Shown piece by piece: positions 871 to 44,588 of a DNA stretch of 58,642 bases; within the stretch, counting starts at the first letter, position 1, and every line of letters begins with the position of its first letter. Location: the IMG/VR virus record IMGVR_UViG_3300034683_000065, positions 1 to 58,642 of that record; one strand, given 5' to 3'. The position numbers and the translations under genes were made by a program. This DNA is from a virus. A model generated the notes under the pieces. It was not told the origin of the DNA. It did no database searches and saw only the letters and a program-made list of their open reading frames with translations.

Positions 871-2979
871 TTACATACCTACAGGGGCTACTTCAGCTGA
901 AGTTGGACCTTGTGGTTGAGCACTTTGGGATTGCTGTTGCTGAAGAGCAGCAGCTTGTTGTGCCATCGCGTCGACATCTTGCTTCGCAAGCTTAAGGTTG
1001 TTGATCAAATCTTGCGGAGAGACGCCGTGTTCGCGGGCAGCCTCGACCATCTGACTCATCCAAGCGCGCTCTTCCTCAGCAGCCTGTTGCTGCTGCTGTT
1101 GCTGCACTTGCATTTCCTTTTCAGAGTACACCAGACCCTTATCGCCAAGGTCAAGTGCGTCTGCGATGCCACGAATGACGTTAGGACGCTTGACAATGTT
1201 GATGTCAGTCGGGTTATTAGTGATGGACGCGAACTGAATAAGGGTATTTGCGTACACTTCCTTAGCGATCAAGGACGAAGTCCCCTTAGCCACGATAGTG
1301 TAGTCACCCTTAATGCCCGGATCATCATTAAATTGCATATTCCAGTGGTACATTGCAGTAATAAACGGCTTAGTGATGCCATCGTCAAAGTTTTTGACCT
1401 GGTCTTTGATGGTAATGTTTGCACTTCCCATCATCATGGACAGGCCAGAAGCCGTACGACCAGCTCCACCAGCTTGTTCACCCCACATGTAGCGTGGAAT
1501 AGTAGTAACTTCGTCTCCGTACTCCTTGAACATGGCAGCAAGGCGCTCAAATTCGAGCGTGTACGAGGGAAGTTGGAACACTCGGATCGCCGGAGATGCA
1601 GCATCGGGACCAGCCCCTGTGCGAAGCCACGTTTTAAACGGCCGAATGTCCGTTGCGTCGTCGAGATCACTCAGAAGATCAAGGTTTACTTCGATCTGAG
1701 GGCCAGCACTGATGGCAGCGTTGTCGAGCATGGCTCTAAAAGCGCTGTTAGTCAGCTCTTGAACGTCCCGCATGATGGTCGGGATGCCCTCACCAAAGAT
1801 AGAAGTCTCATCTTTGTCGTAGTAGTAGAAAAAGTAAGGCCACTTTATGCCGTCCATGGGCATAACAGAAGCTTTAATCACGTGACAGCCAAGAACCCAC
1901 ACGTTTGCGGCCACTTCAAGGTTGCCTTTAAGCTTGTCTGGTACAGAAATACCAGCCTTTATGAGATCTTCAGCGTCAACGTAACCCCAAAACTCGAACA
2001 CTTCGTACTTCTTAGCGTGCGAATTAGCGCTTGCGTTTGACTGAACAACGTTACCAAGCGACTGAAGCTCGAGTTCGTGGGACTTTTTCTCAAAGTCACC
2101 GTCAGGATTGTCCTTCAGGTACTTCTTAATCTTCTTTCCAGCAAAGTCAGAGCGCTTAGTAAGCTCGGAAAGCTCGTGCTTGTCCATCTTCCTGCGCTGT
2201 ATAAGGTACCTGCAGTCGTCAATCGAAGTTGCTTCCATGTCAGGATAGATATCCCACACAGGAACAGACTCAATAAACGGGGTAACCTGGTCAAAGTGCT
2301 GCAAAATCCACTCACTTTTACCAGACTTACCTGTACTTTTCTTGTACTGCTTATTCTGAACAATGCTAACCAGCGGACCTTTAAGTATACCTGTGCCGTA
2401 AACGTTGCCACTGTGGACAACCTCACGCATTATTTCGCGATACTTAAGTTCAACAAGCTGGTCTTCGATGGTCTTTTCCATCCGCCTTGTCTTCTTGCGA
2501 GCTTCTTCGCCCACAAGCATTTCAAGTTCTTCAGGAGTGATCTGCTGCCCAGTCTCTTGTACGTACATAGCAGCAAGCATTTTCTGCTGCTCGTCGCTAA
2601 AGTCTGGGTACGGGGTAGGTTCGATACCCCAGTTCTTGTCTCCGTTAGCAGGGAACAAGAAGTCACAAAGGCGACTGTCAACAGTCTTTACCTTCGTACG
2701 TGTAATTCGAATGTACGCCTTGGATCTATTAGGATCCATTTTAGAAATCGTATCAGGATCGTACTGACCCCTGTACTGTCTGAGGTCTGTAAGCCAGCGA
2801 TCTTCGATTTCCTTTCGCGCATTCTCACTTTCCTCGAAGCACGACGACACAAACTTAGCGAGATCGTCGCCTTCTTTTTTGTCAGTCTTACCGTCTACGT
2901 TAACTTCGTCGAGAACCTTTTCTATTTCTTTCTGAAGCTTGTCGTCTACAGTAACGACTTCTACTTGAGTGTCTATCAT
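871..2979 (-). CDS. Portal (head-tail connector) protein
   Basis: A 702-aa protein, the expected size for a podovirus portal, directly downstream of the large terminase. The portal forms the dodecameric ring at the capsid vertex through which DNA enters and leaves. Features include an early segment with ITRTKVKTVDSRLCDFLFP, a central region ending in PRYMWGEQAGG and the helical stretch GRTASGLSMMMGSANITIK, which resembles portal stem and crown regions. The C-terminus is Gln-rich with a run of seven Gln, typical of a disordered portal tail. It starts 6 bp after the terminase stop. Confidence 0.9.
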   Translation of the reverse strand: MIDTQVEVVTVDDKLQKEIEKVLDEVNVDGKTDKKEGDDLAKFVSSCFEESENARKEIEDRWLTDLRQYRGQYDPDTISKMDPNRSKAYIRITRTKVKTVDSRLCDFLFPANGDKNWGIEPTPYPDFSDEQQKMLAAMYVQETGQQITPEELEMLVGEEARKKTRRMEKTIEDQLVELKYREIMREVVHSGNVYGTGILKGPLVSIVQNKQYKKSTGKSGKSEWILQHFDQVTPFIESVPVWDIYPDMEATSIDDCRYLIQRRKMDKHELSELTKRSDFAGKKIKKYLKDNPDGDFEKKSHELELQSLGNVVQSNASANSHAKKYEVFEFWGYVDAEDLIKAGISVPDKLKGNLEVAANVWVLGCHVIKASVMPMDGIKWPYFFYYYDKDETSIFGEGIPTIMRDVQELTNSAFRAMLDNAAISAGPQIEVNLDLLSDLDDATDIRPFKTWLRTGAGPDAASPAIRVFQLPSYTLEFERLAAMFKEYGDEVTTIPRYMWGEQAGGAGRTASGLSMMMGSANITIKDQVKNFDDGITKPFITAMYHWNMQFNDDPGIKGDYTIVAKGTSSLIAKEVYANTLIQFASITNNPTDINIVKRPNVIRGIADALDLGDKGLVYSEKEMQVQQQQQQQAAEEERAWMSQMVEAAREHGVSPQDLINNLKLAKQDVDAMAQQAAALQQQQSQSAQPQGPTSAEVAPVGM

Positions 2980-2985
2980 AGCGCC

Positions 2986-4410
2986 TTAGTAGCCTCCGAT
3001 GGAGCTTGCTGCTTGATACTTTTTACGGTTGGCAAGTAGCGTTCTTTTTGGTTGTTTGTGCACGTACTCCATCATCGCGTACTGCAGAGCGTCGTGTACG
3101 TGAGAGTACTTATTCTTTGCGGGCTTCTCTTTGTACAGAATCCCGTTAACTGTCTTGGCTTCGTCAAACTTGTACTCGCTCAAGAAACCCTTTCTGAGAG
3201 CAGTACAACTAGGCCCAAGTTTGAATTTATCTCTTAATCTTAGGTAGTGAATGACAGCTTCTTTTCGTTCTGTGAACACGTTCGACTTAGCGAGGCGCAC
3301 AGGCAGACCGTTCTCTTTGAGTACGTCAAAGCCTGCTTTAGCGTCGTTCATAGATCTTTGTACTGTAGCCGGGTCACACACTACTCTGAAATTAGAAACT
3401 ATCCACGGGTACTTCGTAGTGATCAGTGGCCACAGGTGTTCTTGACAGAACTCTTGCAACGAACAATCTTCAGTGGCGATCTCGTCAAACACAAGCACTC
3501 TACCGTCTGGAGCTTGCTGCGTAAATACTGCAGCGGGGGTGAGGCCTTGGTCAACTCCTATAATTACAGGGACCTCTCGAAGAGGAAGAATCGGCTCACT
3601 TACGTAATGTTCGTTGTCGTCGTAGTCTTTGTAAACAGGTCTACCTGTTCTGACTTCACCGTAGTTGTTCATTACGTTAACGTTGATGAAGTCTTCGTCA
3701 GCGCCCATGACGTTGAGTTTGTAGTACTCTTCGTCTAGGTTTTCTACGTTGTCAGCCTCTGGGTTAACTACGTATTTACCATCTGGCAGCTTAATAACTG
3801 CAGACGGTTGCTTGTAAAAAGCGCAGCCCTCAGGCTTTGTTTCTTCAGCTATTTTGTACAACCAGTGGTCTGTGCTGACGGCGTTGTAGTCAAGAATAAT
3901 GAACGGGTTAACACACCCACCGTCCTTTCTAGCAGGATATCGGTTAAAGCGTGTTTTGAGCATTTCGAAAACTCTGTAGCTGACTTCCGAAGCTTCGTTG
4001 ATGTGGCACGACGTTACTTCAAGAGAACGAAGTTTTTCAACAGCTTGGTCGTCGTCTACTGCGATGAACAGAACTTCCATGTCTACGGTAGTGCCATCTT
4101 CCATCGGGTACCGTATACGACCTACAATCGGAGTACTGTAGGTTATCGTGATCTTGTCTTTAAACCAAGAGATCCACGACTTGACAGTGGAAGCTTTAAG
4201 AGATGGGTACGTAGCACGAACCACAAGATGTCTGCTGTGTCGAACCCCGTTGTGGTCAGGCTTCTGACGCATTGCGTTAATAAAGGCGTGAAAGATGCAC
4301 CCAGTACTTTTGCCAGAGCCAACCGGCCCCATAACAAAAATAAACGGGTTGGTCTCTCTGTGCACTTTACTAAACGTGGGTACAACCTTGTAGTTAATGT
4401 CTAGACTCAT
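2986..4410 (-). CDS. terL: Terminase large subunit (packaging ATPase/nuclease)
   Basis: A 474-aa protein with the classical two-domain layout. The N-terminal ATPase has Walker A GPVGSGKS at residues 28-35 and a hydrophobic strand ending in HINEASE that fits Walker B and the catalytic Glu. The C-terminal RNase-H-like nuclease has acidic strands VIIGVDQG and VFDEIATED and the late motif HVHDALQYAMMEY. The enzyme pumps DNA into the procapsid through the portal and cuts concatemers. It sits between TerS and portal, as usual. The Walker B motif carries Asn-Glu rather than Asp-Glu. Confidence 0.96.
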   Translation of the reverse strand: MSLDINYKVVPTFSKVHRETNPFIFVMGPVGSGKSTGCIFHAFINAMRQKPDHNGVRHSRHLVVRATYPSLKASTVKSWISWFKDKITITYSTPIVGRIRYPMEDGTTVDMEVLFIAVDDDQAVEKLRSLEVTSCHINEASEVSYRVFEMLKTRFNRYPARKDGGCVNPFIILDYNAVSTDHWLYKIAEETKPEGCAFYKQPSAVIKLPDGKYVVNPEADNVENLDEEYYKLNVMGADEDFINVNVMNNYGEVRTGRPVYKDYDDNEHYVSEPILPLREVPVIIGVDQGLTPAAVFTQQAPDGRVLVFDEIATEDCSLQEFCQEHLWPLITTKYPWIVSNFRVVCDPATVQRSMNDAKAGFDVLKENGLPVRLAKSNVFTERKEAVIHYLRLRDKFKLGPSCTALRKGFLSEYKFDEAKTVNGILYKEKPAKNKYSHVHDALQYAMMEYVHKQPKRTLLANRKKYQAASSIGGY

Positions 4411-4446: not shown

Positions 4447-4839
4447 TTAAAAGTTAAATTCTTCAGGGTCTTTAGTTGCAGGCTCTTCGGAGCTGTTTTC
4501 TATGTCAAGCTTAGGCAGCCCGGCAGCACCGTTCTCGTCAGTGGGGAACATGATGTTCACCCGGATTACTTCGCCTTGGTGCTGATTAACTTCAACGTTC
4601 TTGAGCTTCGGAACAATGTATCCCATGAGCTCTTGGCTGATCTTAATCTTTTCACCCACGCTAGTCTTGTTAGACTTCGCAAGGGCAACAAGCTCTTGAA
4701 GAGGGTCGAAGTTGAACTCGTACTGCAAGCGACGAAGCAGCAAGTCACCCTTCGTGTAGCCTTGACCAGTAGGAACCTTAGAGGTCGGAGTAGGCTTGGT
4801 GAGCAGGGGTCTACCTGCTGGTTTTTCGTTGTTACTCAC
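4447..4839 (-). CDS. terS: Probable terminase small subunit
   Basis: A 130-aa protein immediately upstream of TerL in the same leftward operon. A basic, disordered N-terminus is followed by a helical core containing KIKISQELMGYIVPKLKNVEV, which resembles the central oligomerisation segment of small terminases, and an acidic C-terminal tail. Small terminases recognise the packaging site and recruit the large subunit. The call rests on position, size and the Y-x-x-PKLK pattern; no helix-turn-helix is obvious. Confidence 0.7.
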   Translation of the reverse strand: MSNNEKPAGRPLLTKPTPTSKVPTGQGYTKGDLLLRRLQYEFNFDPLQELVALAKSNKTSVGEKIKISQELMGYIVPKLKNVEVNQHQGEVIRVNIMFPTDENGAAGLPKLDIENSSEEPATKDPEEFNF

Positions 4840-4968: not shown

Positions 4969-5268
4969 TTAGTCTGTGCAGACTGATCCATCTTTTGCGT
5001 GGTAGTGAAGGTACCTCCGCGCTTCTTCAGGCGAAAGCCTGTAAACGCTGAGAATTTGCTGCTGCATTTCTTCTTGCCGGCACTCGATCTTGTCAAGCTT
5101 CGACCAAATAAGCTGCAGCTGCTTTTGTACTTCACTTCGAGACTCTTGGAGTTCAGTCACTAGTTTGCCGGCGTTAAAGAACGTCGACCTACCCAGTGTT
5201 CCAAGAAATGTAGCAGTAGCTAGTAGTACGGAGACAGCTCCGACTAGCACTTCTGGATTGTCTAACAT
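4969..5268 (-). CDS. Small membrane protein with coiled coil, first gene of the virion operon
   Basis: A 99-aa protein with one hydrophobic segment near the N-terminus (about residues 8-27) and then a long charged helix (about 35-75) of coiled-coil type. The C-terminus ends in a short Cys-containing tail. It is the first gene after the palindromic divergent promoter. One membrane span plus a coiled coil fits a holin-associated or spanin-like protein, but no lipobox or lysis partner lies next to it. Function unknown. The 130 bp between it and the next gene show no clear feature. Confidence 0.7.
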   Translation of the reverse strand: MLDNPEVLVGAVSVLLATATFLGTLGRSTFFNAGKLVTELQESRSEVQKQLQLIWSKLDKIECRQEEMQQQILSVYRLSPEEARRYLHYHAKDGSVCTD

Positions 5269-5338
5269 TTGTACCCGTGTGTGCGCAATAGTGATGTGTT
5301 AAGTGTGAGCGTTCGAGCGTGTGTAAAAGTACAAATGT

Positions 5339-5377
5339 AACATACGTCTTGACATCTCCCCCATCAAGACTTATGTT
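5339..5377. promoter_or_regulatory. Near-palindromic divergent sigma70 promoter pair
   Basis: Rightward promoter: TTGACA at 5349-5354, 17-bp spacer, TATGTT at 5372-5377. Leftward promoter: TTGATG (complement of 5362-5367), 17-bp spacer, TATGTT (complement of 5339-5344). The two share a 14-bp inverted repeat, AACATACGTCTTGA at 5339-5352 against TCAAGACTTATGTT at 5364-5377, with 13 of 14 positions matching. The -35 boxes lie inside and the -10 boxes outside, so transcription would diverge to the virion operon on the left and the HU-like gene on the right. Confidence 0.75.
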
Positions 5378-5418
5378 TATTATCAAATACAAATAATACC
5401 ACAGGGAGGATTTGTCAA

Positions 5419-5970
5419 GTGGTAAGTGAAGAAAAAGTTAATATTTCTGCGAGTAGGTGTAGAAAAAATTACAACAAGGGTGACAGGGCTAATGATTACC
5501 TTGAGTACTACACGCTTCAAGAACTTCTTAAAGACCTGAAGATTATGTTCCCCAACATCCCGATAAGCGAACTTCGCAGACTTGTGAGAGCTATCTTCTG
5601 GATTTTTACTGAGTGTTTTGCTCAAGGAATGAACGTACGTATTCACAACTTCGGTCGGTTCTTGGTAAAGGATCTTCCTGCGCCCAACAGAGTGTTTGAC
5701 TTCTGGAACGGTGGTGACTTGCCTAATCCTCCGACACGTCGTAAAAGTGTTTCGTTCGAACCAGGCCACAGAATGCGTCACGTTATAAGTCCTACGGACA
5801 GTACTTACATTAGTGACTGCGGAAGGTACAATCACGAGTGGAACAGAAAGGTTAAGGCAATACACGAGCGCATAGGCAATGCTCTGTACCAGGCTCCGTA
5901 CGATAAGTTTGGAAACTACCTTGGTTACACAGATGAATTCGCGGAGTACTTGACAAAAGATTTTATATAG
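5419..5970 (+). CDS. HU/IHF-like DNA-binding protein
   Basis: A 183-aa protein starting at GTG behind AGGGAGGA (5403-5410). The central region follows the bacterial HU/IHF plan: a helical dimerisation segment (ELRRLVRAIFWIFTECFAQG), then VRIHNFGRFLVKD, which matches the conserved V-x-I/L-x-G/N-F-G-x-F turn, a variable beta-arm with Pro and Arg, and a closing FEPGHRMRHVI strand and helix. It is about twice the length of HU because of a C-terminal extension of some 70 residues. It is the only gene driven rightward from the divergent promoter and may bend DNA at the adjacent repeat-rich region. Confidence 0.75.
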   Translation: MVSEEKVNISASRCRKNYNKGDRANDYLEYYTLQELLKDLKIMFPNIPISELRRLVRAIFWIFTECFAQGMNVRIHNFGRFLVKDLPAPNRVFDFWNGGDLPNPPTRRKSVSFEPGHRMRHVISPTDSTYISDCGRYNHEWNRKVKAIHERIGNALYQAPYDKFGNYLGYTDEFAEYLTKDFI

Positions 5971-5990: not shown

Positions 5991-6233
5991 GTGAGTAAGA
6001 ATAATAAAGTAGTATTTAAATTTAGTATAAATAAAGAAGAAGTTAAAGTAAGAAAACTTAATAATTTAAAACCTACTAAATTCTTTAAAGATAAAAGTAA
6101 GTATAATAGAAAAGAGTTTAAGCTTAATAAAAAGAGCTTAGACTCTTTTTCTTTTTATATATATATATATATACCATCAGTACCTGGGGTTCCTAAGGGA
6201 CCTAAGGTTCTAGGTCTACATCAAGTTAAGTAA
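5991..6233 (+). CDS. Doubtful small basic protein in AT-rich DNA
   Basis: An 80-aa frame opening with GTG 20 bp after the HU-like stop. It is extremely Lys- and Asn-rich, as expected from very AT-rich DNA, and it continues through a terminator-like hairpin and an 18-bp TA run encoding YIYIYI. A weak AAGG lies upstream. The first 50 residues could be a small nucleic-acid-binding protein, but the frame may simply be open by chance. Confidence 0.35.
   Translation: MSKNNKVVFKFSINKEEVKVRKLNNLKPTKFFKDKSKYNRKEFKLNKKSLDSFSFYIYIYIPSVPGVPKGPKVLGLHQVK
6129..6150 (+). terminator. Terminator-like hairpin downstream of the HU-like gene
   Basis: AAAAAGAG (6129-6136), loop CTTAGA, CTCTTTTT (6143-6150) forms a perfect 8-bp stem whose 3' arm ends in a T-run, followed by more T. 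The stem is AT-rich and modest in strength. It would end transcription from the divergent promoter before the gene-free region. Confidence 0.5.
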
Positions 6234-7240
6234 CTTAGGAATACCTATAAGTAAATACGAAGTAAGTACTTATAGATACTTCTAAAGTAAATAACCATCC
6301 TTACCTGGTTCTCTTAAGACTACTCGAAGTACCTAAGGGACACGAATAGTACCTAAGCCCTCTAGAATTCTAAAAATATACGCGCGATGTAGGTGACATC
6401 ACAGGGGGTAGGGGCCACTCTGTGTCCCACGGTACCCCTCGAACCACCCCCCCCTATGGGAAAATTCGGAGCTGTGTGGTCTGGATAGAGCCACTCCAGA
6501 TAGCCTCAATTCCGATTAGATTAATCTAGTACGCTTCAATCCTAGTATCCTTCAATCCGAGAACGCTCCAATAGGATACAAGTTAATCACGATTGCCCTA
6601 CTCCGCTTCCGTTTCCGCTTCCGGTTCGCTCGCTTGCCTTGTGTATTATGCGCTATCCGTTATGCCTTCCTACCTTTCTTCCTTCCTGCCTAACTACCTG
6701 ATATCACTGGATATCTTTCTTTTAGTAATCCTTCATGTTTCCTTTGTAACATGCTGTAATCCTTGAGCTAATTTAAGTTTTTCGTTTTAAGGCACGATAT
6801 GCCACAAGATGACCTGCGGTATGCCTTGGTGCTTTACGTGCCCTACAGGTCAATGTCGTGCGTTCTATGGGGTCTTGTGTGCTCGCTCAACATGTCATTC
6901 CTTTTTGGTAGGATATGGTTTTTCTCTTGTGCTACATTGGTACTTTGCTACTGCGACAACGTGATGTTGCTTTGTGTTACTTTGCTACTACAGTCGCACT
7001 ACAGTCGCGTTGCATTGCAAGTTGCATTGGCGCTAATTCACGTTGCTTTGCGTTGCGTTGTTTTTGCGTTTCTTGTGTTTGCTTGGCATGATACTTGCCT
7101 TTACGCGCGCATGTGCGCACCACATATGAACGTAGGTCTTGTGACGTGACGTGTTGAATTACTTCACTTTTCGCGTTTGGTGCTTGTGACGTGTTGATTT
7201 TACTTGATAAAAATCTTTTTCGGTTTTCTTGAAAAATTGT
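6234..7240. other. Gene-free, repeat-rich control region (candidate origin)
   Basis: About 1 kb without a convincing gene between the HU-like gene and the main early promoter. It holds CCTAAGG/CCTAAG words at about 6192, 6201, 6332 and 6352, an eight-C run near 6447, and GATATC-ACTG-GATATC at 6700-6715. CTyCAAT words place CAAT at 6537, 6553 and 6569, exactly 16 bp apart, with a related copy at 6507. Pyrimidine-rich stretches (6598-6700) and a TTGC-rich stretch (6950-7080) follow. The composition shifts from AT-rich to mixed. Its position at the divergence point next to an HU-like gene makes it the best candidate for a replication origin. Confidence 0.5.
7138..7207 (+). repeat. Direct repeat upstream of the early promoter
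   Basis: Two related copies, 7138-7164 and 7183-7207, share CTTGTGACGTG and then GTGTTGA followed by a T/A-rich TTACTT. The second copy ends about 33 bp before the -35 box at 7241. The placement suits an activator or repressor site (inference). Confidence 0.5.
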
Positions 7241-7268
7241 TTGACATCAACCTGCAATCTGGTATTGT
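7241..7268 (+). promoter_or_regulatory. Main early promoter (sigma70-like)
   Basis: TTGACA at 7241-7246, a 16-bp spacer and TATTGT at 7263-7268. The -35 is a perfect consensus and AT-rich DNA lies just upstream, like an UP element. It stands 58 bp before the first gene of the rightward early region. Confidence 0.75.
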
Positions 7269-7325
7269 TGCCTTGAACGTAGCATAACGATACGTTCCAC
7301 ATACTACCTACTTGAGAGGTTCGCT

Positions 7326-7829
7326 ATGTCCGTGGATACTGCACGTGCGCTGCGTGACGCCGAAGGTCGCAATGCTACCAGATTGCTTGGCAACGTCGAA
7401 CCTATCGACCTGCCTGTTGGCTGTAATGCCGGAACCATGCGCGAAGTTCCACCTATGGTGCTCGAAGTCTTGAAGCGAGACGTACGGGCGCAACTGGATG
7501 TGCTCAAGGCGTCTGGAGTGTCATGTCGTGAACGTAACAGGCTGTCAAAAAGCTTGTTACGTCTTGCCGTCGAACGATGGCATGAAGGTCGCAAGCGTGA
7601 CGCTTACAAGTTGCGCGCCAAGAAAGCGGGTGAAACCCGCAGCATCAAAGCGGCGAACAGACCGCGCGCAAAAAGCGAACATGGCACCGAAGCACCGCTT
7701 GAAGCGTTCGCTTCAGCTAGGCATAAACCTTGCCCGAAGAAAGCAAAGGGTTTGATAGGTTTGGCGGTCAAAGCGAGCGAAAAAAGTCAAGCACCGCAGG
7801 TAGTTGTCAGAAAAGCGAAAAAAGATTAA
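7326..7829 (+). CDS. First early protein, basic, unknown
   Basis: A 167-aa protein with GAGAGG 9 bp before the ATG. Residues 1-90 look folded, with mixed helix; the remainder is strongly basic (Lys, Arg, Ala) and probably disordered. No known domain is recognised. As the first gene behind a near-consensus promoter it is expected to be made immediately after infection, and a basic early protein suits binding to nucleic acid or to host RNA polymerase. That role is only inference. Confidence 0.75.
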   Translation: MSVDTARALRDAEGRNATRLLGNVEPIDLPVGCNAGTMREVPPMVLEVLKRDVRAQLDVLKASGVSCRERNRLSKSLLRLAVERWHEGRKRDAYKLRAKKAGETRSIKAANRPRAKSEHGTEAPLEAFASARHKPCPKKAKGLIGLAVKASEKSQAPQVVVRKAKKD

Positions 7830-7872: not shown

Positions 7873-8609
7873 GTGGCAAGCAACGGAAGACCGACATAAG
7901 GTCGGTACTCCGCCACAAGTGACAAGAGGCCGTCCGTTTCCGGATGGACGCACGAACACCGCGCCAGCATTGGGCGTACCGACGTAGCATGACGTCACGT
8001 CACGCAAAAGCACATAACGCTTTGCAGTATGCCCTTGCGCCATGACGCACCAAACATTTTAACCGGATTGCTCACGTTCCGTCGTGAGAATTAGTTATCC
8101 CCGCGCAAGCCACAAGGCACACAAAGCCGTCGCTTGCTACCTCAAAGACGCCGATACGTTCACGGACGTTCGGCACGACGTGAGGTGAAGCAACGCAACG
8201 TAAAGCGCAAGACGACGTGACAACGCCGACCGCCCTTTTCTTTGTGTGACAGTGTATCGCTTGTCAATGACGTTCTTCACGGAGAACGGAGACAACGCGA
8301 CACCGAATCCAACTTGTGGAGACCAGCGCAAGGCAGGAAGTTAGGTAAAAAGCCCAGTACCGACGCCATGAAGACCGACCGCCGATTGTTTCACGCGAAA
8401 CATTCAACGCGCAAGCCCAGTAATGGTTAATGCCAGTCGGGAAGACCTGATAAAAGCTAACTCCTGCTACTAGGGGCAACTATGGCATACGAAAAATGCT
8501 ATGTTGTGCCGACGGGGTAAAAATCCGGCTCACTTGTCACAAATTGCTTATTTCACAGAAGAGGCTTCCCTACCGAAAGCTAATAGCTAGTACGTAGGGA
8601 AGCCTTTTT
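7873..8609 (+). ncRNA. Large structured non-coding RNA candidate (about 735 nt)
   Basis: No convincing frame covers this stretch, yet base-pairing is dense. The 5' end (7873-7886) pairs with 8127-8140 over 14 positions, with one G-U and one mismatch. Inside lie hairpins ACCGAC/GTCGGT (7890-7906), CGTCCGT/ATGGACG (7931-7950), a helix GGGCGTAC/GTATGCCC (7972-7979 with 8027-8034) enclosing GACGT/ACGTC and GCAAAAGC/GCTTTGC, and CTCACG/CGTGAG (8071-8088). The 3' part has CGTTCT/AGAACG (8271-8288), TGTTTC/GAAACA (8387-8402) and ATGGCAT/ATGCTAT near 8482-8502. A promoter precedes it and an intrinsic terminator ends it. It may belong to the giant ornate RNA classes (GOLLD- or ROOL-like in scale), but I recognise no family signature. 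Confidence 0.65.
8562..8609 (+). terminator. Strong intrinsic terminator
   Basis: AGGCTTCCCTAC (8562-8573) and GTAGGGAAGCCT (8594-8605) form a perfect 12-bp stem around a 20-nt loop, followed by a T-run. It ends the large RNA and separates it from the next gene. Confidence 0.9.
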
Positions 8610-26280: not shown

Positions 26281-28257
26281 TTGTCTTACATTATCCTCGA
26301 CATAGAGGCTACCAAAGTTCCTCACCACAACCCGTGGCACAAGGACTCTTACCTTTGCTCCGTAGGTATCCTAGATAAAAACGGAGTCTTTCACTCCTGG
26401 GTGTTTAACCACAGGACTGAGGCTGTTCGAAATGAACGGCTTATGCTGTGCGAAATCCAGCGTATGCTGGACGAAGCACACATGATTGTCGGGCACAACA
26501 TTAAGTTCGACCTTAACTGGCTAAAGACGGTCGGCCTTGCGTGCAGTGACAAAAAGATTTGGTGTACCCAGGTAGCAGAGAACCTCATACAGGGTCAACG
26601 CAAAGTCGGATACAAACTTGACCAACTCGCACAACGGTACGAGGTAAAAGGAAAGCTCGACCTTATGGCTGAGTTCTGGTCTAGTGGATACGAGACAGAC
26701 GAGATTCCTTTGAGCGTACACCTGCCATATCTTGAACAAGACCTTCGGACAACACGCGACATTTTTCTTAGGCAGCTGCCTATCGTGATGTCGTCAGGAC
26801 TTGACAAGTTGGCAGAGCTTACGTTCGAAGTCACGCAGATTCTCAGCGACGTTGAGACGCGTGGTGTTGCGTTTGATCTTGACAGTGCTACCAAGTACAT
26901 TGACGAGTACAAAGAAAAAGTAGAGCAGCTCAGCAACAGAATGCAAGCGGTGGCTGGTATAGAGTTTAACCCGAACACTCCAGCTCAACTATCAGCAGTT
27001 CTGTTCGGCGGCTCTTGGAAAATTGACGGTCGTGAAACGTACACTGTCACGCTGAAAGACGGTACAGTAAAAGAGAAGTCTAGAAAGTGTAAGGTAGATC
27101 TTACAACTGCTGGCCTTGGCTTTGTTCCTCCGCAAGGCTGCGTGTCCAAGAAGACAGGCGCTGCTAGTGTGGACAAGAACGCGCTCAAGCTCATTGGTGC
27201 TAAGACCCCAGCGCAGAAAGATTTCTTGCAGGCCCTTATTGAGTACAAGAAAGCAGCAAAAGTTTTGTCTACGTTTGTCAGTGACACAAACGATAACGCA
27301 GGTCTGGTATCTAAGGTTGGTAAGGACGGGCGGATACACCCAACGTTCAACCAAACAGTAACAGCTACCGGAAGACTGTCGTCGTCAGACCCCAATGGTC
27401 AGAACCTTCCTAGAAAGGGTACGTCACCAATCAAGAAGGTTTTCTACGCCAAGCGTGGTGTCATCGTTAACCTTGACCTCGGACAGATAGAGTGGAGAAT
27501 GGCTGCTGAACTCAGCCGCGACCCAGTAATGCTGTACGAAATCAAGAACAACGTCGACGTGCACGCTGACAACGCGATTAGATTCTTTGGCGCCGGTGAG
27601 TTTGACGCAGACTCAGAGGAGTTTAGCAAGCTGCGCACTGCTGCCAAGGTCATGACTTTCCGTCTTCTGTACGGCGGTTCGGCTAATGGTTTTTACAGAG
27701 ACCAGAACATGCCGAGATACTCGCTGGCTAGGTGGCGTGAAATCGTGGCTGCGTTCTACGAAAAGTACAAAGGTCTCGCTGCGTGGCAGCAGAACAACGT
27801 ACTGCGTGCGAACAAAGACGGCTACCTGCGTAATCCCTCTGGCAGATTCCTAACGTTCGAAGAAGAAACAACTTGGGAAGGCCTGACAGAGTTTTCGCAG
27901 AAGCAAATTTACAACTACCCTGTGCAAAGCTGTAGCGCAGACATCATGTATCTTGCAATGTATCACGTGAACAAGCGTGTGAAAGAAGCTAAACTCAACG
28001 CTGACATGGTACTGCAAGTGCACGACTCCATGGTCTTCGACTGCTCTAAAGAAGACGCACGGAAGCTGTGCGAAGTAGGCATCAGGACATTTGAAGAATT
28101 GCCGAAGCTTGCCCGCGAGTACTTCGGCTGGGAGATAGACGTTCCACTGACTGGTGACGCAGAGATCGGGTACAACTACGGTGCTACCAAGAAGTGCCCT
28201 GTCGAAAAGTGGGACGAAATCTTTAGTAACCTAGATGGTTACTTGACAGCCAACTAG
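26281..28257 (+). CDS. Family A DNA polymerase (T7-like)
   Basis: A 658-aa protein. TTG 26281 is preferred because TGAGGT lies 6 bp upstream. The 3'-5' exonuclease shows IILDIEAT (Exo I), GHNIKFDLNWL (Exo II) and YLEQDLRTTRDIF (Exo III), so proofreading is intact. Polymerase motif A is NLDLGQIEWRMAAELSRD, motif B KVMTFRLLYG, motif C LQVHDSM. The residue matching E. coli Pol I 762 is Phe. It copies the phage genome, possibly with a host processivity factor, since no thioredoxin-binding insert is evident. Confidence 0.97.
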   Translation: MSYIILDIEATKVPHHNPWHKDSYLCSVGILDKNGVFHSWVFNHRTEAVRNERLMLCEIQRMLDEAHMIVGHNIKFDLNWLKTVGLACSDKKIWCTQVAENLIQGQRKVGYKLDQLAQRYEVKGKLDLMAEFWSSGYETDEIPLSVHLPYLEQDLRTTRDIFLRQLPIVMSSGLDKLAELTFEVTQILSDVETRGVAFDLDSATKYIDEYKEKVEQLSNRMQAVAGIEFNPNTPAQLSAVLFGGSWKIDGRETYTVTLKDGTVKEKSRKCKVDLTTAGLGFVPPQGCVSKKTGAASVDKNALKLIGAKTPAQKDFLQALIEYKKAAKVLSTFVSDTNDNAGLVSKVGKDGRIHPTFNQTVTATGRLSSSDPNGQNLPRKGTSPIKKVFYAKRGVIVNLDLGQIEWRMAAELSRDPVMLYEIKNNVDVHADNAIRFFGAGEFDADSEEFSKLRTAAKVMTFRLLYGGSANGFYRDQNMPRYSLARWREIVAAFYEKYKGLAAWQQNNVLRANKDGYLRNPSGRFLTFEEETTWEGLTEFSQKQIYNYPVQSCSADIMYLAMYHVNKRVKEAKLNADMVLQVHDSMVFDCSKEDARKLCEVGIRTFEELPKLAREYFGWEIDVPLTGDAEIGYNYGATKKCPVEKWDEIFSNLDGYLTAN

Positions 28258-28351
28258 TAGTACATATATTACTAGTACACGTAAGTACACGTGTGGTGTA
28301 ACAGCTACTACATTCACGAAAACATTACATATTCAAAAACGAGAAGATCAC

Positions 28352-34218: not shown

Positions 34219-34749
34219 ATGACTAACACGAAAACAGCGATAAAGCTTCTTAAGTGTGTTGGTCCTTTGTGGTATGTAAGTTCTCCAATTTCTACAGGGG
34301 TACGTAAACACAGATTTGAAGAACGCTACTCTTACATTACTAACAAGAGTCTTTACGATTCTTTGTACAAGAAGTATGTAATAGAGCCTAACTGTGCGGA
34401 CGCCAGGGTGTTGGCAGAGTCGTACCGTAGTGACTTGCTGACAGTTCTGTGCCCGGCTGACTTCTATGAGCCTAGCTGGTCACAGGAAGATTACCTTGCC
34501 TTTTGGGAAGAGGTGATTACTGAGTCTGTACACACAATCGTGTTTAATGATGGTTGGGAATATTCTCACGGGTGTAATGAAGAGTTTGTGCTTGCGCACA
34601 AGCTTGGCATTAGATGTTTCGCTGATGATAACGAGGCGCTGTCTGTGGAAGATGGCTACAACATGGCGAAGCACGCTAGCCAGCACGAGCCGTGGTGGCC
34701 AGAAGTAGAAAAGAAATACAAGGAATTGATGAAGAATGTTGACGCGTAA
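34219..34749 (+). CDS. Nucleoside deoxyribosyltransferase-like (DUF4406-like) protein
   Basis: A 176-aa protein beginning 1 bp after the endolysin stop. It has an opening WYVSSPIST strand-loop, which resembles Y-x-x-x-P-I/M-S/T-G, and the late motif DGWEYSHGCNEEFVLAHKLGIRCF, resembling L-x-G-W-x-x-S-x-G-x-x-x-E-x-x-x-A-x-x-x-G-I. The fold transfers or cleaves deoxyribose on nucleosides, so it fits nucleotide salvage during infection. Confidence 0.7.
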   Translation: MTNTKTAIKLLKCVGPLWYVSSPISTGVRKHRFEERYSYITNKSLYDSLYKKYVIEPNCADARVLAESYRSDLLTVLCPADFYEPSWSQEDYLAFWEEVITESVHTIVFNDGWEYSHGCNEEFVLAHKLGIRCFADDNEALSVEDGYNMAKHASQHEPWWPEVEKKYKELMKNVDA

Positions 34750-38345: not shown

Positions 38346-41300
38346 TTAGTACCTCACACCAGCAGACTCAGCTGCTTTGATCATGCGCTTCATGTGCATC
38401 TCCTTTTGCTGTTGCAACATCCGCTTACGGACGTTGTACTCTTCTGAGTAGATGCTGTGCTTGATCGCCAAGTCTGTCTCGGCCTTACGTATCTTAGTCA
38501 AGGCAGTCTCAACTCTCTTGAGATCTTGTTCTGCTTTAAGTGCAGACATAGACCTAGCCCGTATCTCTGCGAGCTCCTTGCCTCTGACTCCTTCCTTGTA
38601 CGCCAGATTATATTCCCCAGCAGAAGCCATGACTTCTTTCTTCACTTTACTGTAGAGCTGCTGCGTGTCAGACGCACCAACCTCACCAATAAAGCGCTTA
38701 AGAACAGGAGACTTAGTGTACTCGAACTCTCGTCCGGGAGTGAGCGCCATGTCGATAGCCTTGTAGGAATCCCACACAACTCGACCAACACCACCAGTGT
38801 ACGAAAGCAACGTGTGCTCTATAGTCTCTGGAGAAATATCTACGTATCCAGACTTAGTCTTCGACCCGCCGGTAACAGAGTTAAGAGCCTCAGCAAACGC
38901 TCTGAGCACAGGGTCAGCTGTACCCCAGAACTTCTGGCTGTCTGGCTTGTCCTTTGCACCTTCAGGTACTATGGGCTGCCCAGCAAAGTTACGGTTAGTA
39001 GCTATCTGGAACATAGGCCTGAAGATCGTAGGCACAAGTGCAGTCCAACCCTCGTCAGCCCCACCAACAAAACTGAAGGCGTCAAAGAAAGTCTTGACAG
39101 AACTGACAGCAGCCTCAACAGGTTTCTTACGACCGTTGATGACTTGGTCAAATGCGTCGCTTGTTGCCCAGAACATGTGGTAACCAAGAGCCATGGGGAT
39201 CTTGATGTAGCCACCGTCAGAAAACGGAGACGGAAGGATCAAGTTCTGAGACCTAACGTAGTCAGGTATCTTGTCGTACTTGTTAACTCCGTCATCGTCG
39301 TCACCCATGACAGCTCGGCACAGTGCTGCGAGAGCCATCTGCCCTGCCATGAATCCACCCAAGTACTTAGCGACACGCTTGACGTTCTGTTCACGAGTAG
39401 AAGTAGGGCGAACAATGTTCTGCATCATTCGAATGTTACCAGCAATAGACGCGCTGCTAAACATGTAGAGTGCGTTCATCACAGGAGCCCAGGCCCCCTT
39501 CTTCGTGAAGTTAACCGTGAGGTTAAGTGCAACGTTACCAGCTCTGTCTTGTGCTACTTCTGGAGACATGCCGTGTTTACGGTAAACACTGTACATATTC
39601 TTGAAGACGCTAAGGCGAGTCATGTTCTCAAGGATGTCGCTGAGCGTGTGCAAGTAAGTACCAGCTGTGATTACAAGGTCGCGTGCTGCGTGAGGCTGTC
39701 GAGCCATCTTGCGCAGACGCGTGTACGTGTCTTCAAAGTTAGCGAGGCCGTACATAGAAGTCTCAGCTCCGCTGTCCTTGTACAACTTAATAGCGTTGTA
39801 CCACCCAGCCTCTTCTTCGTTACGAGGGGCAAGTCCTTTACCTTCCCGCCACAAAGCCTTAAAGGCTGGCACAAGATCCTTAGCAAGCTGCGGTCTGATC
39901 TTCTTGATATCCGCTGCGAACTCTTGCTTGTGCTCTTCAATCACGCTGCCGAGGTTAAGCAGCGCAGTCTGTACGTCTCGAATGGGGTTACCCAAGATAA
40001 ACGGAAGAGACAGCGTAGTGCTTGCCTTAGCCATCATCTGCGTAAACACACCCATCTGCCTGATAGCAGGGCCAGCGATGAGCAGGTTCTCATCTTTAAG
40101 GCCTCGAGCAAGTTCTTTGTCAAAGATAGCAACACGAACACGTGAACCGTCTTCGTCGATTATCGTGACAACTGGCACGTCAGTACCAGAGAACTCGTGC
40201 TTAGCTTTCCTGAATACAAGTTCACCTTCTCCAGTGCTGGTGACTTTGTACTTAGGCTTTTCAGAGTCTATAACCTTCCACAGATCTGGTGCTGGGTTGT
40301 CCTTGATGAGGTTCAGCAAGGATCTGCCAACTACAGTACGCTCACCCATACGGATAGCGTCTTCGTACTGAACGATCGTGTGAATGATCGGATTCTGCGG
40401 AAGAGTGTCGCGACCCTTAGCGCGCTTAGACGGAACCCACTCACCGACGCTGATGCCAGCGCGAGCGTGCTCTGCTGCGTACCCAGGGTCTATCTGCTTA
40501 ATAGCTTCGTCCCAATTCTTGAGCGGAACGTAGTACTTGTACGTCTGCTCCCACTGATCAATAACATCCTTGTCAAACAAGTTGTACTGACGCAGCAGTT
40601 CAAGGCGAGCCGTGTTCAAGTACTTCAGCACACGAACAACTCCCTCCATGTTGGGGTCGCCTTCGTACTTACGAATAGTTTCGTGAGCTTCGGCGTCTGT
40701 CCAACCAGATGGTGCTTCCATGTACTTAAGCATGTCTTGCGTAATGTTCTTGTGAGGCATATTCTTGATCCGCTCTCTGAGCACAGCGTTACGCTCAAGC
40801 GCGTGAAGCGCAGTAGCGTAGTCAGCGGCAGCAGCAAGAGCTTTCTCAAAAGAACCAAACTTAGGAACAAGTTTGTTAACAAAGTACATCAACGATCCCT
40901 TAGTGTTGGGGTCGATGAACTCCTTCTGGATTTCTCCAATCCGACTAGATACTTTGTTACTCATCATCTCGTGCTTACGATACGCGTTGGTGTGCGGAGT
41001 GATCTTTCCACCTTGCTTAATCAAAGCACGCTGCACAACTTGCAGCCTTCTCAACTTATCCCCAAACTTTTCAAGCAGCCAGTCGACAGAGCTGTGACGA
41101 CGAACCTTGCCGTCAGGAGTCACCACCTGCCCAGCTTTGATGACGTCTTCAACAACCTTGCCAACCTTGTCTATGAGACTAAGTCGGTTGTCTTCTCGAA
41201 TCTGCTCAGCCTCAAGGAACGTGCGCGGGCCTGTGGTAGCACTCTCTGGAAGTGAGTACAGAAGAGCATTTACTTTAGACTTGTACTCAGCACTATTCTT

Positions 41301-44300
41301 ATCTTGTGCTAGGTGCAAAGCGCTGGCTTGGAGTATAGTGTAGATGTCGTCTTCAGTAAGCTTACGTACACCAAGCTTATTAAGAACTTGTTTGATAAAG
41401 TTCTTGACCTTTGCGAGCACAGACTTCTCGTCTGCGTCTAGCAGCTGCTTAACTTTCTTTCGTTCCGCAACTCTAGCCACGAACTCTTCGGCCTGGCTCA
41501 GAGGATCAAGAGACGAGTAGTACTCGTTCTTTCCTATGTGGCTGGCCCACGCTTTAGAGTCTTTAAACGAGTCGTACACAAGCTTAAGAAAATGTTCTCT
41601 CTGTCTGTCAGTAAACAGCGAGCGAAGTCCGTAGTGGACAACACCTTCGTGCACAACAGCCCGTACGGCCTGCTCTTTCGAAGTTATGTTCGGAGCGAAC
41701 AGTAGAATTTTTCCGTCGACAAATGCGGCTACAGCGCCCTTCTGGTACCGTGCGAGAATGTCCTGGTTCGAAATAACTTCTACTTTGTCAGCAAGTACAG
41801 GGAGTTGGCTAAGCGTGTTTTTAATCCACGCTGTTACTTTCTTTGCAGAGTCGACAGCCTCTTTTGTTGTGCCGACTTGCTCACGTGCCTGAGCTTGTGT
41901 CTGAGCTTTGACTACGTCTACTTCTCTTGCAAGATTACTTGTGTGAACTGTACCGGTCTCAGGCACAGGCATAGTACCTTGCTGGACAGTGCCAGTAGCT
42001 TGCTCTTGTGTGGGCACCAAAGACCTGCGGTGCAGCTGGTACCCTGGAACGAATTCACCTTCCGGCATTCGTCCGAGCGCAGCAGCTTCTTCAAATTGTT
42101 GACGTTCAGCCTGATCCCACCACGCAGCAAGCTCAGCTTCTTGCGCTTGCTTTTCTTGCTCTCGTGCGTTAGCCAAGTCACGAGCAGCCTCGTACTGAGT
42201 TTGGTGGAACACCATGTTACGTTCTACTGGCTGAGGTACAACAGCAGGTGCTGCCGGTACAGCCTCAGCTACGTCGGTAACCTTGGGAGGAAACACCAAC
42301 ATGTCTCTGTTGTACATACTGGCACCGAACGCTTCTTCTTGTGCTCTGGTGTTGGCTTCGTCGAACTGCTGAGCTTTGGCTCTTGCTGCGGCTATGTCGT
42401 TAGCGATCTTGTCTCTAACTTTGTTAGCTTCTTGCACAGCCTCTTGCTCGTACAGACGTGCGTACTCGGCAGCTTCTGCCTTGTTCTCTGCCTGTGCACC
42501 AAGGGTAGCCCAGTATTCTTTACCACCACCGAAGAACTGTTTCAGTCTTTCTTGACGTTCTCTGCGCTTGTTGTTCTGCTCTTCTTGCCTGATGCTCTCA
42601 CGAGTGTGTGCTGCACGCAGCTCGTTAGCTGCTGCGGCAATGTGCGCCTGTTCTTGCAGCTTGTTCGGCAGCGCGGTGTCGGGTGTTAGATTAGCAAGGA
42701 GATCGTCGCCAGTCTTTTCTGCTCTCTTTCGAAGTTCCTGAAGACTAACTTCGGGCGCTCCTCTGAGGATGGCATCTATGTCAGATGCTGCTGAGCCTAT
42801 GCCGTACAGAGAGTTAAGAGCCTTGTCCAGCTTCCACTGTTCGCCAACCTTGTTGTTAGCGATAAGCCTAACAGCCTTGTCACCCTGCTCAAAGATATTG
42901 TCAACTCTGTTCTGCTCAGCAGTAAGTGCGTTCTTGTAAGTAGAAAGTCTGTCTGCAAGAATACTTACTGTTGCGCGGCTCAGCGTCGGGTCAGACATCT
43001 TGGCTTCGAGCTCTGTGATAGCTGCCCTAAGCTTGCCTTGAATCTGAGTAGAGATGTCAGACTGCCTATTAACAAACGTCTGTACATCCTTAGCCTGGTC
43101 TACAAGTCTCTTATATACTTCAGGAGACTGAGGTGGAGCAGTTGCTTCAGATTCTGCACGCTTCTCTCTGGCCTTCTGTACTTTCTTTTCTGCTGTGGTA
43201 GTAGCTTTCTCTACTTGCTTCTTAGCCAAAGCTTGCGCATGCTCAAGATTCTTCTGTGCCTTTGCAAGCTGACCAGTGACTTGTGCGAGTGCATCCTTGG
43301 CCTGCCCACGAACCTGTGGATCCGACCCAGGATTTCCAAGAACAGTAAGCAGATGGGCACGCTGCCTAGAAAGCTGCTGCACCAGTCCAGCGTACTTCTG
43401 TTGTGTCTCTGCAAGCTTAGAACCAATGCTGTCAACAGTCATAGAGACAGCAGTCTTACCTATCTCAGTAGCAGCTTCTACATTACCAGCAGCCACAGCT
43501 GCTTCTTTGATAATGTCTTCTGCGTTGAACTGAGGTTTGGTAGACAACGACGGATCGTTGCTTTCTGCCGTGTTCTTTTCTGCTGTCTTAAGACGATCTA
43601 CTACTGTGGACACTGGGGCAAAGCCAAGACCACCAATAGCACCAGCAGCTGCGCTGTTGATGATATCCCAGTAGTCATCTGGAGTAATCCAAGCTCGGCT
43701 GTCCTGAATGTTTGCGTTGGCTGAAGCTACGGCTTCCTGAATACCTTCAGTAAAACCTTCCTGCAGCATAACCTTGGGCAGGTCTCGTACGAGTGCGCTC
43801 CTGAAAGATCTTTCAACTTCTCGCGCGACAGGAACGCCTGTGACCTTCCGAAGGATTGAACCTTCAGCACCCATGACAACGTCAACCATTGCGCTAGCAA
43901 GACCAAACGCAGCGTCTTGGATCGGCCTGGTATTTTCAATGCCGTGGGTTTCCACATCTCGTGCGTACATCCCACCAGCTTCTTGAGACCACATGGCACC
44001 AGTAACACCAAGTGTTGCACCAAGCCTAGACGCAACTGCCTTAGTCGCCGTCTCACGCGCAAGCTCAGCACTAAGGCCTTGCTTGATGAGGGACTGCTCT
44101 GCTGCTGCAATCGCAGACTTAGCTCCGTTGGCTACTACTGTACCAAGCACACGCTTGCCTACAAAACTACCAACTCCACCAGTACCAAGAGACAGCATAG
44201 CCTGTGGAAGCAAAGACCCAAGTGTGTGAGCTCCCCACTGAGCGGCAGTCTCAAAAGACTCGATATCACGTATGTCGCCTACCTTACCAGCATAAGGTGA

Positions 44301-44588
44301 GGCTTCTTCCATGTTTCTAAGATACCCCTCGTAACCAAAGTCGCGAAGAGAATCAATTCCTGCTATGTCACCAGCAAGTCCAACAGACCCATAGCCAAGG
44401 GCTTGCATCTGCTGCTTACCGTACTCCCACCCCTTGCCAAACTCTGACATACCAGCAGCAGGATCAACAGGTGCTGGTGTAGGAATAGCAGAGTACGCAT
44501 CTTGAATGTTGTACGAAGATCCGCCCCCGAATGGCCTTACTGGCCCACCGAAGGGATTAATCATAGTACCAGCGCTATCCGGCGTCAT
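38346..44588 (-). CDS. Giant internal virion (ejection) protein with polyvalent-protein domains
   Basis: A 2080-aa protein, the largest of the phage. Residues 1-360 are Gly/Ala-rich with hydrophobic segments; 360-950 is a long Gln/Glu/Ala coiled-coil stretch; near 978 VVHEGVVHYGLR has an HExxxH-type motif as in polyvalent proteins; 1100-2080 is a helical region with FILGNPIRDVQTALLNLG and FVGG segments resembling the large-polyvalent-protein domain LPD38. In podoviruses such proteins are stored in the head and ejected to form a channel through the envelope; the peptidase-like motif suggests wall or protein cleavage. Confidence 0.85.
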   Translation of the reverse strand: MTPDSAGTMINPFGGPVRPFGGGSSYNIQDAYSAIPTPAPVDPAAGMSEFGKGWEYGKQQMQALGYGSVGLAGDIAGIDSLRDFGYEGYLRNMEEASPYAGKVGDIRDIESFETAAQWGAHTLGSLLPQAMLSLGTGGVGSFVGKRVLGTVVANGAKSAIAAAEQSLIKQGLSAELARETATKAVASRLGATLGVTGAMWSQEAGGMYARDVETHGIENTRPIQDAAFGLASAMVDVVMGAEGSILRKVTGVPVAREVERSFRSALVRDLPKVMLQEGFTEGIQEAVASANANIQDSRAWITPDDYWDIINSAAAGAIGGLGFAPVSTVVDRLKTAEKNTAESNDPSLSTKPQFNAEDIIKEAAVAAGNVEAATEIGKTAVSMTVDSIGSKLAETQQKYAGLVQQLSRQRAHLLTVLGNPGSDPQVRGQAKDALAQVTGQLAKAQKNLEHAQALAKKQVEKATTTAEKKVQKAREKRAESEATAPPQSPEVYKRLVDQAKDVQTFVNRQSDISTQIQGKLRAAITELEAKMSDPTLSRATVSILADRLSTYKNALTAEQNRVDNIFEQGDKAVRLIANNKVGEQWKLDKALNSLYGIGSAASDIDAILRGAPEVSLQELRKRAEKTGDDLLANLTPDTALPNKLQEQAHIAAAANELRAAHTRESIRQEEQNNKRRERQERLKQFFGGGKEYWATLGAQAENKAEAAEYARLYEQEAVQEANKVRDKIANDIAAARAKAQQFDEANTRAQEEAFGASMYNRDMLVFPPKVTDVAEAVPAAPAVVPQPVERNMVFHQTQYEAARDLANAREQEKQAQEAELAAWWDQAERQQFEEAAALGRMPEGEFVPGYQLHRRSLVPTQEQATGTVQQGTMPVPETGTVHTSNLAREVDVVKAQTQAQAREQVGTTKEAVDSAKKVTAWIKNTLSQLPVLADKVEVISNQDILARYQKGAVAAFVDGKILLFAPNITSKEQAVRAVVHEGVVHYGLRSLFTDRQREHFLKLVYDSFKDSKAWASHIGKNEYYSSLDPLSQAEEFVARVAERKKVKQLLDADEKSVLAKVKNFIKQVLNKLGVRKLTEDDIYTILQASALHLAQDKNSAEYKSKVNALLYSLPESATTGPRTFLEAEQIREDNRLSLIDKVGKVVEDVIKAGQVVTPDGKVRRHSSVDWLLEKFGDKLRRLQVVQRALIKQGGKITPHTNAYRKHEMMSNKVSSRIGEIQKEFIDPNTKGSLMYFVNKLVPKFGSFEKALAAAADYATALHALERNAVLRERIKNMPHKNITQDMLKYMEAPSGWTDAEAHETIRKYEGDPNMEGVVRVLKYLNTARLELLRQYNLFDKDVIDQWEQTYKYYVPLKNWDEAIKQIDPGYAAEHARAGISVGEWVPSKRAKGRDTLPQNPIIHTIVQYEDAIRMGERTVVGRSLLNLIKDNPAPDLWKVIDSEKPKYKVTSTGEGELVFRKAKHEFSGTDVPVVTIIDEDGSRVRVAIFDKELARGLKDENLLIAGPAIRQMGVFTQMMAKASTTLSLPFILGNPIRDVQTALLNLGSVIEEHKQEFAADIKKIRPQLAKDLVPAFKALWREGKGLAPRNEEEAGWYNAIKLYKDSGAETSMYGLANFEDTYTRLRKMARQPHAARDLVITAGTYLHTLSDILENMTRLSVFKNMYSVYRKHGMSPEVAQDRAGNVALNLTVNFTKKGAWAPVMNALYMFSSASIAGNIRMMQNIVRPTSTREQNVKRVAKYLGGFMAGQMALAALCRAVMGDDDDGVNKYDKIPDYVRSQNLILPSPFSDGGYIKIPMALGYHMFWATSDAFDQVINGRKKPVEAAVSSVKTFFDAFSFVGGADEGWTALVPTIFRPMFQIATNRNFAGQPIVPEGAKDKPDSQKFWGTADPVLRAFAEALNSVTGGSKTKSGYVDISPETIEHTLLSYTGGVGRVVWDSYKAIDMALTPGREFEYTKSPVLKRFIGEVGASDTQQLYSKVKKEVMASAGEYNLAYKEGVRGKELAEIRARSMSALKAEQDLKRVETALTKIRKAETDLAIKHSIYSEEYNVRKRMLQQQKEMHMKRMIKAAESAGVRY

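Follow-up and report, generated by a model that had tools for sequence, protein, structure and literature searches.

Overlapping divergent promoters predicted within a near-symmetric 39-bp stretch between the HU/IHF-like and virion genes of a podophage-like genome

Does a near-palindrome of 39 bp, lying between the virion genes and an HU/IHF-like gene of a phage, start transcription in both directions, or is its symmetry there for another reason? We address this question for positions 5339-5377 of a 58,642-nt virus record from IMG/VR (IMGVR_UViG_3300034683_000065), the whole of which is called the window here. The record carries a 127-bp direct terminal repeat, and when this repeat is counted once, the scaffold gene continues through the joined ends. 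Hence, the contig maps as a circle, and the 150-bp gap between the divergent genes (5269-5418) is therefore its sole divergence point. The left arm (- strand, across the joined ends) carries a 99-aa gene followed by the genes for a TerS-like protein, TerL, portal, scaffold, capsid and more virion proteins to ~37.8 kb, and the right arm (+ strand) carries the HU/IHF-like gene, then primase, DnaB-type helicase, DNA polymerase, ligase and nucleases to ~36.8 kb. The GC skew is broadly in line with these two arms. The genome is circular-mapping and podophage-like. The features of the locus are as follows:

871..2979, - strand: portal / head-tail adaptor protein (database match)
2986..4410, - strand: terminase large subunit, TerL (database match)
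4447..4839, - strand: terminase small subunit-like gene (by position; without a family match)
4969..5268, - strand: first virion-side gene, 99 aa, function not assigned (counterparts in the relatives L002 and L003 by position and C-terminal similarity)
5339..5352, + strand: left arm of the inverted repeat, AACATACGTCTTGA
5364..5377, - strand: right arm of the inverted repeat, TCAAGACTTATGTT on the + strand, AACATAAGTCTTGA when read on the - strand
5349..5377, + strand: sigma70-like promoter toward the HU-like gene, TTGACA-17-TATGTT, 10/12; predicted start ~5384
5339..5367, - strand: weaker sigma70-like promoter toward the virion genes, TTGATG-17-TATGTT, 8/12; predicted start ~5332
5403..5409, + strand: ribosome-binding site AGGGAGG of the HU-like gene (seen in the sequence)
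5419..5970, + strand: HU/IHF-family gene, 183 aa, GTG start (PF00216; profile matches to IHF/HU structures)
6109..6150, + strand: terminator-like hairpin 3' of the HU-like gene (hairpin scan)

Matches to TerL, portal and capsid proteins confirm the virion operon that a preliminary description of the locus had proposed. The HU-like gene that it named is likewise borne out, by PF00216 and by profile matches to HU/IHF structures. Against PF00216 the product scores 21.2 bits alone (below the cut-off of 22.4) and 22.8 bits with its neighbours in frame (above it), while its counterpart in L003 matches the family at 5.5e-12. Moreover, a profile built from four sequences finds both IHF and HU structures (2iie, E=1.4e-8). 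The AlphaFold model of the product is poor (pLDDT 47); its core order and best PDB matches are those of HU/IHF. Elsewhere on the virion side, a 2080-aa protein (38346-44588) matches only very large phage proteins with no assigned function (phrog_14770, phrog_616, phrog_10691).

The inverted repeat was found exactly where it had been described: its 14-bp arms match at 13 of 14 pairs around an 11-bp spacer, the 39 bp reading AACATACGTCTTGA-CATCTCCCCCA-TCAAGACTTATGTT, and the TATGTT claimed for each half-site is present in both. Three sites of the window carry a repeat of this quality (arm of 14, at least 13 matches, spacer of 20 at most), at 5339, 6110-6111 and 8560 (four hits, two of them overlapping), compared with a mean of 0.17 per whole-window shuffle, and when the 150-bp gap alone was shuffled, 1 of 3000 sequences held one. 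The repeat at 8560-8607 pairs AGAGGCTTCCCTAC with GTAGGGAAGCCTTT across a 20-bp spacer. Additionally, a perfect 10-bp inverted repeat, ACATTTGTAC/GTACAAATGT, lies at 5265-5274 and 5329-5338, one of its arms spanning the start codon of the 99-aa gene. Among the viral and genome contigs searched, none held an exact match to the 5339-5377 repeat with a spacer of 4-24, and the phage records searched held no near DNA relative of the window.

Two sigma70-like promoters with 17-bp spacers had been read into this repeat; both spacers are there, but the two promoters are unequal. In an approximate sigma70 matrix of E. coli hexamer frequencies, which the sigma factor of the host may or may not follow, the rightward promoter ranks 2nd of 117,232 positions and the leftward one 55th, the latter being missed by a 9/12 scan. 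The rightward promoter has the features of a sigma70-type element, with hexamers near consensus, 17-bp spacing and the AGGGAGG site before the GTG at 5419. The leftward candidate has a poor -35 (TTGATG) and draws its backing mainly from relatives; an alternative extended -10 for it, TGTTACATT, lies 5 bp further on. The two elements share 19 bp, and thus overlap as well as diverge, and if both members are required to score high, no divergent promoter pair in the window ranks above them. An equally good pair arose somewhere in 53 of 100 whole-window shuffles, and since about half of such shuffles hold one, our case rests on position and relatives and not on score alone. When the 150-bp gap was shuffled, 7 of 2000 sequences had both scores at 8.5 bits or above, an inexact comparison, since the local background scores the real pair at 7.3. 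No promoter-like site in the window scores higher than TTGACA-16-TATATT at 28243-28270 (+), which lies where the DNA polymerase gene ends.

Searches with TerL and portal yielded four relatives, L003, L005, L006 and L023, and the HU-like/virion divergence is common to all of them. In the L003 gap, two 12/12 promoters with extended -10 point away from each other, their -35s separated by 10 bp. This pair ties for the best promoter score on the locus, with 0/500 local shuffles as good, and 12/12 extended -10 promoters number six in the L003 genome versus none for the reversed control pattern. In both L005 and L006, the top promoter of the contig (12/12) aims from the same gap at the virion genes. 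Its -35 region is overlapped by a less strong candidate that points toward HU. L003 also has a terminator-like hairpin after its HU-like gene, matching the place of the hairpin in the window. The tight promoter overlap was not seen in L003, the very A+T-rich gap of L023 showed no clear promoter pair, and the inverted repeat of the window is absent from all four syntenic relatives; its symmetry is lineage-specific.

Other features were noted in these relatives. The L023 gap has several ACTTAAG palindromes; of the 12 copies on the locus, 9 lie to either side of the HU-like gene (6022-6368 and 7251-7426), including four within the divergent gap, and they may be an operator array. The predicted leader of the HU-like mRNA in L003 (3308-3385) contains several strong inverted repeats, e.g., one of 14 bp at 93% with a 14-bp spacer. 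A further relative, L002 (69% TerL), stops short of the gap. Searching with the HU-like or TerS-like protein alone returned no relative, the TerL search of genome contigs gave no match, and the named phages Rollin, Y3 and Pmp11 (TerL ~33% identity) have no annotated HU-like gene divergent to terminase. The wider set of portal relatives added L023 as its only further case, several others having same-direction upstream genes or being incomplete there.

Collectively, position, score and syntenic relatives make a divergent pair of sigma70-type promoters in the gap a well-supported prediction. The earlier proposal that such promoters drive the virion operon and the HU gene stands on the same grounds, with its leftward member weak. 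We consider it probable that overlapping divergent sigma70-type promoters start both transcription arms, and from the sequence elements, gene order and relatives we infer how transcription, start sites, exclusion and timing may be arranged. The stronger rightward promoter would fire the HU/IHF-like gene, and the leftward one, with its poor -35, would serve the 99-aa gene, the TerS-like gene, TerL, portal, scaffold and capsid. Since each -35 sits in the spacer of the other promoter, one RNA polymerase would cover both and only one could be occupied at a time; hence, the overlap would make the HU and virion promoters mutually exclusive, and not co-expressed as the linkage proposed earlier would have it. 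Under such exclusive occupancy, early transcription would favour HU, and that of the virion side would increase once something blocks the rightward promoter or helps the leftward one. The dimeric regulator that was also proposed earlier may bind the arms, but this explanation works without it. The gap is a likely control point of both arms in uncharacterised phages whose HU/IHF-like gene is retained in divergent orientation to the packaging/virion genes, and, if the promoters exclude each other, a 39-bp fragment in simple reporter constructs could serve to study how the arm is chosen.

The symmetry of the arms calls for a separate account. Ten of the 14 arm positions fall in hexamers, and two more are the TC before TTGA, which is common beside -35 elements. 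Two promoters drawn independently from the matrix reach 13/14 arm matches in ~1e-4 of cases, a figure that is conditional on the same geometry and was computed after the repeat was seen. Three sources could account for the symmetry in excess of two independent promoters: an operator, a mirrored mutational copy, or chance. It is improbable, though conceivable, that the rightward promoter alone is real, the leftward half being a mutational mirror (quasi-palindrome copy) of little activity and the virion genes being read from elsewhere. Inverted copies can come from templated mutation, and the modest score of the leftward promoter (8/12, rank 55) fits such an origin; however, the matrix scan found no better - strand site within the gap, and the relatives have a strong virion-side promoter in that same gap.

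Alternatively, the repeat might mainly be an operator, with a putative dimeric phage regulator on both arms that switches transcription from rightward (HU) to leftward (virion), in the style of phi29 p4 at A2b/A3. We regard this as unlikely, albeit credible. The excess symmetry argues for it, as does the poor leftward -35, which recalls phi29 A3, where p4 sites are inverted repeats over early -35 elements (PMC3100819). A second, weaker copy of the repeat at 34342-34380 (22/28 match, the same 11-bp spacer, 1/200 shuffles as good) also points this way, but it lies inside coding sequence (+ ORF 34219-34749). Moreover, neither the four syntenic relatives nor the searched collections contain the repeat, an activator is not required where a relative has a perfect virion-side promoter, and the 25 bp between arm centres are wide for a simple dimer. 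Rather unlikely, too, is a compact early/late switch, in which a phage protein acting as a dimer, conceivably the HU/IHF-like product, would bind both arms, shut the HU promoter and free or activate the virion promoter; if this were true, 39 bp would set which genome half is transcribed in a phage group not yet described. A hairpin within a transcript, such as a terminator, an attenuator or another RNA element, in place of promoters was rejected as very improbable: the repeat does fold at -11.5 (+) and -14.1 (-) kcal/mol, which 0/200 shuffles equalled, but it has no T-run and no Rfam family match, sits at the divergence point and lies upstream of both predicted starts, hence outside either transcript. 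In the leader of the predicted leftward transcript, folding gave no hairpin structure above shuffles.

The preferred reading, i.e., overlapping divergent promoters, can be set beside known systems. In the bidirectional promoters of the Warman/Grainger type, a shared near-symmetric -10 yields starts 7-25 bp apart, typically 18 (PMC10268837). Divergent starts would likewise arise from DNA symmetry in the window, but here the -10s lie outside the -35s, their outer ends being 38 bp apart, and the predicted starts are ~52 bp apart, which places the locus outside this type. Closer in layout is the Pc/Pr pair of pLS20 (PMC4207663), in which divergent promoters of unequal strength have overlapping -10/-35 boxes, so that polymerase can exclude one of them, and in which one of the two driven genes encodes a DNA-binding protein; its authors cite evidence for one promoter being bound at a time, a possible switch layer. 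The two differ in that control of the pLS20 pair involves the sequence-specific regulator Rco, with operators that have been mapped, and looping of the DNA, whereas the product in the window is HU-like and the split is that of phage virion and HU genes. The nearest phage analogy is phi29 A2b/A2c-A3 (PMC3100819), where early genes, including that for a nucleoid-type protein, diverge from virion genes, the virion-side -35 is poor and inverted repeats lie over promoter elements. The HU-like protein is not p6, however, and the genome types are unrelated. The p4 sites, which are inverted repeats of the form CTTTTT-15 bp-AAAATG with A-tracts (PMC3100819), lie between promoters A2c and A3, whereas the window promoters themselves overlap and the arms read AACATAMGTCTTGA around an 11-bp spacer, a sequence that sets the repeat apart from the p4 type. 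The arrangement itself is already known, and 5339-5377 is a new and tidy example of it.
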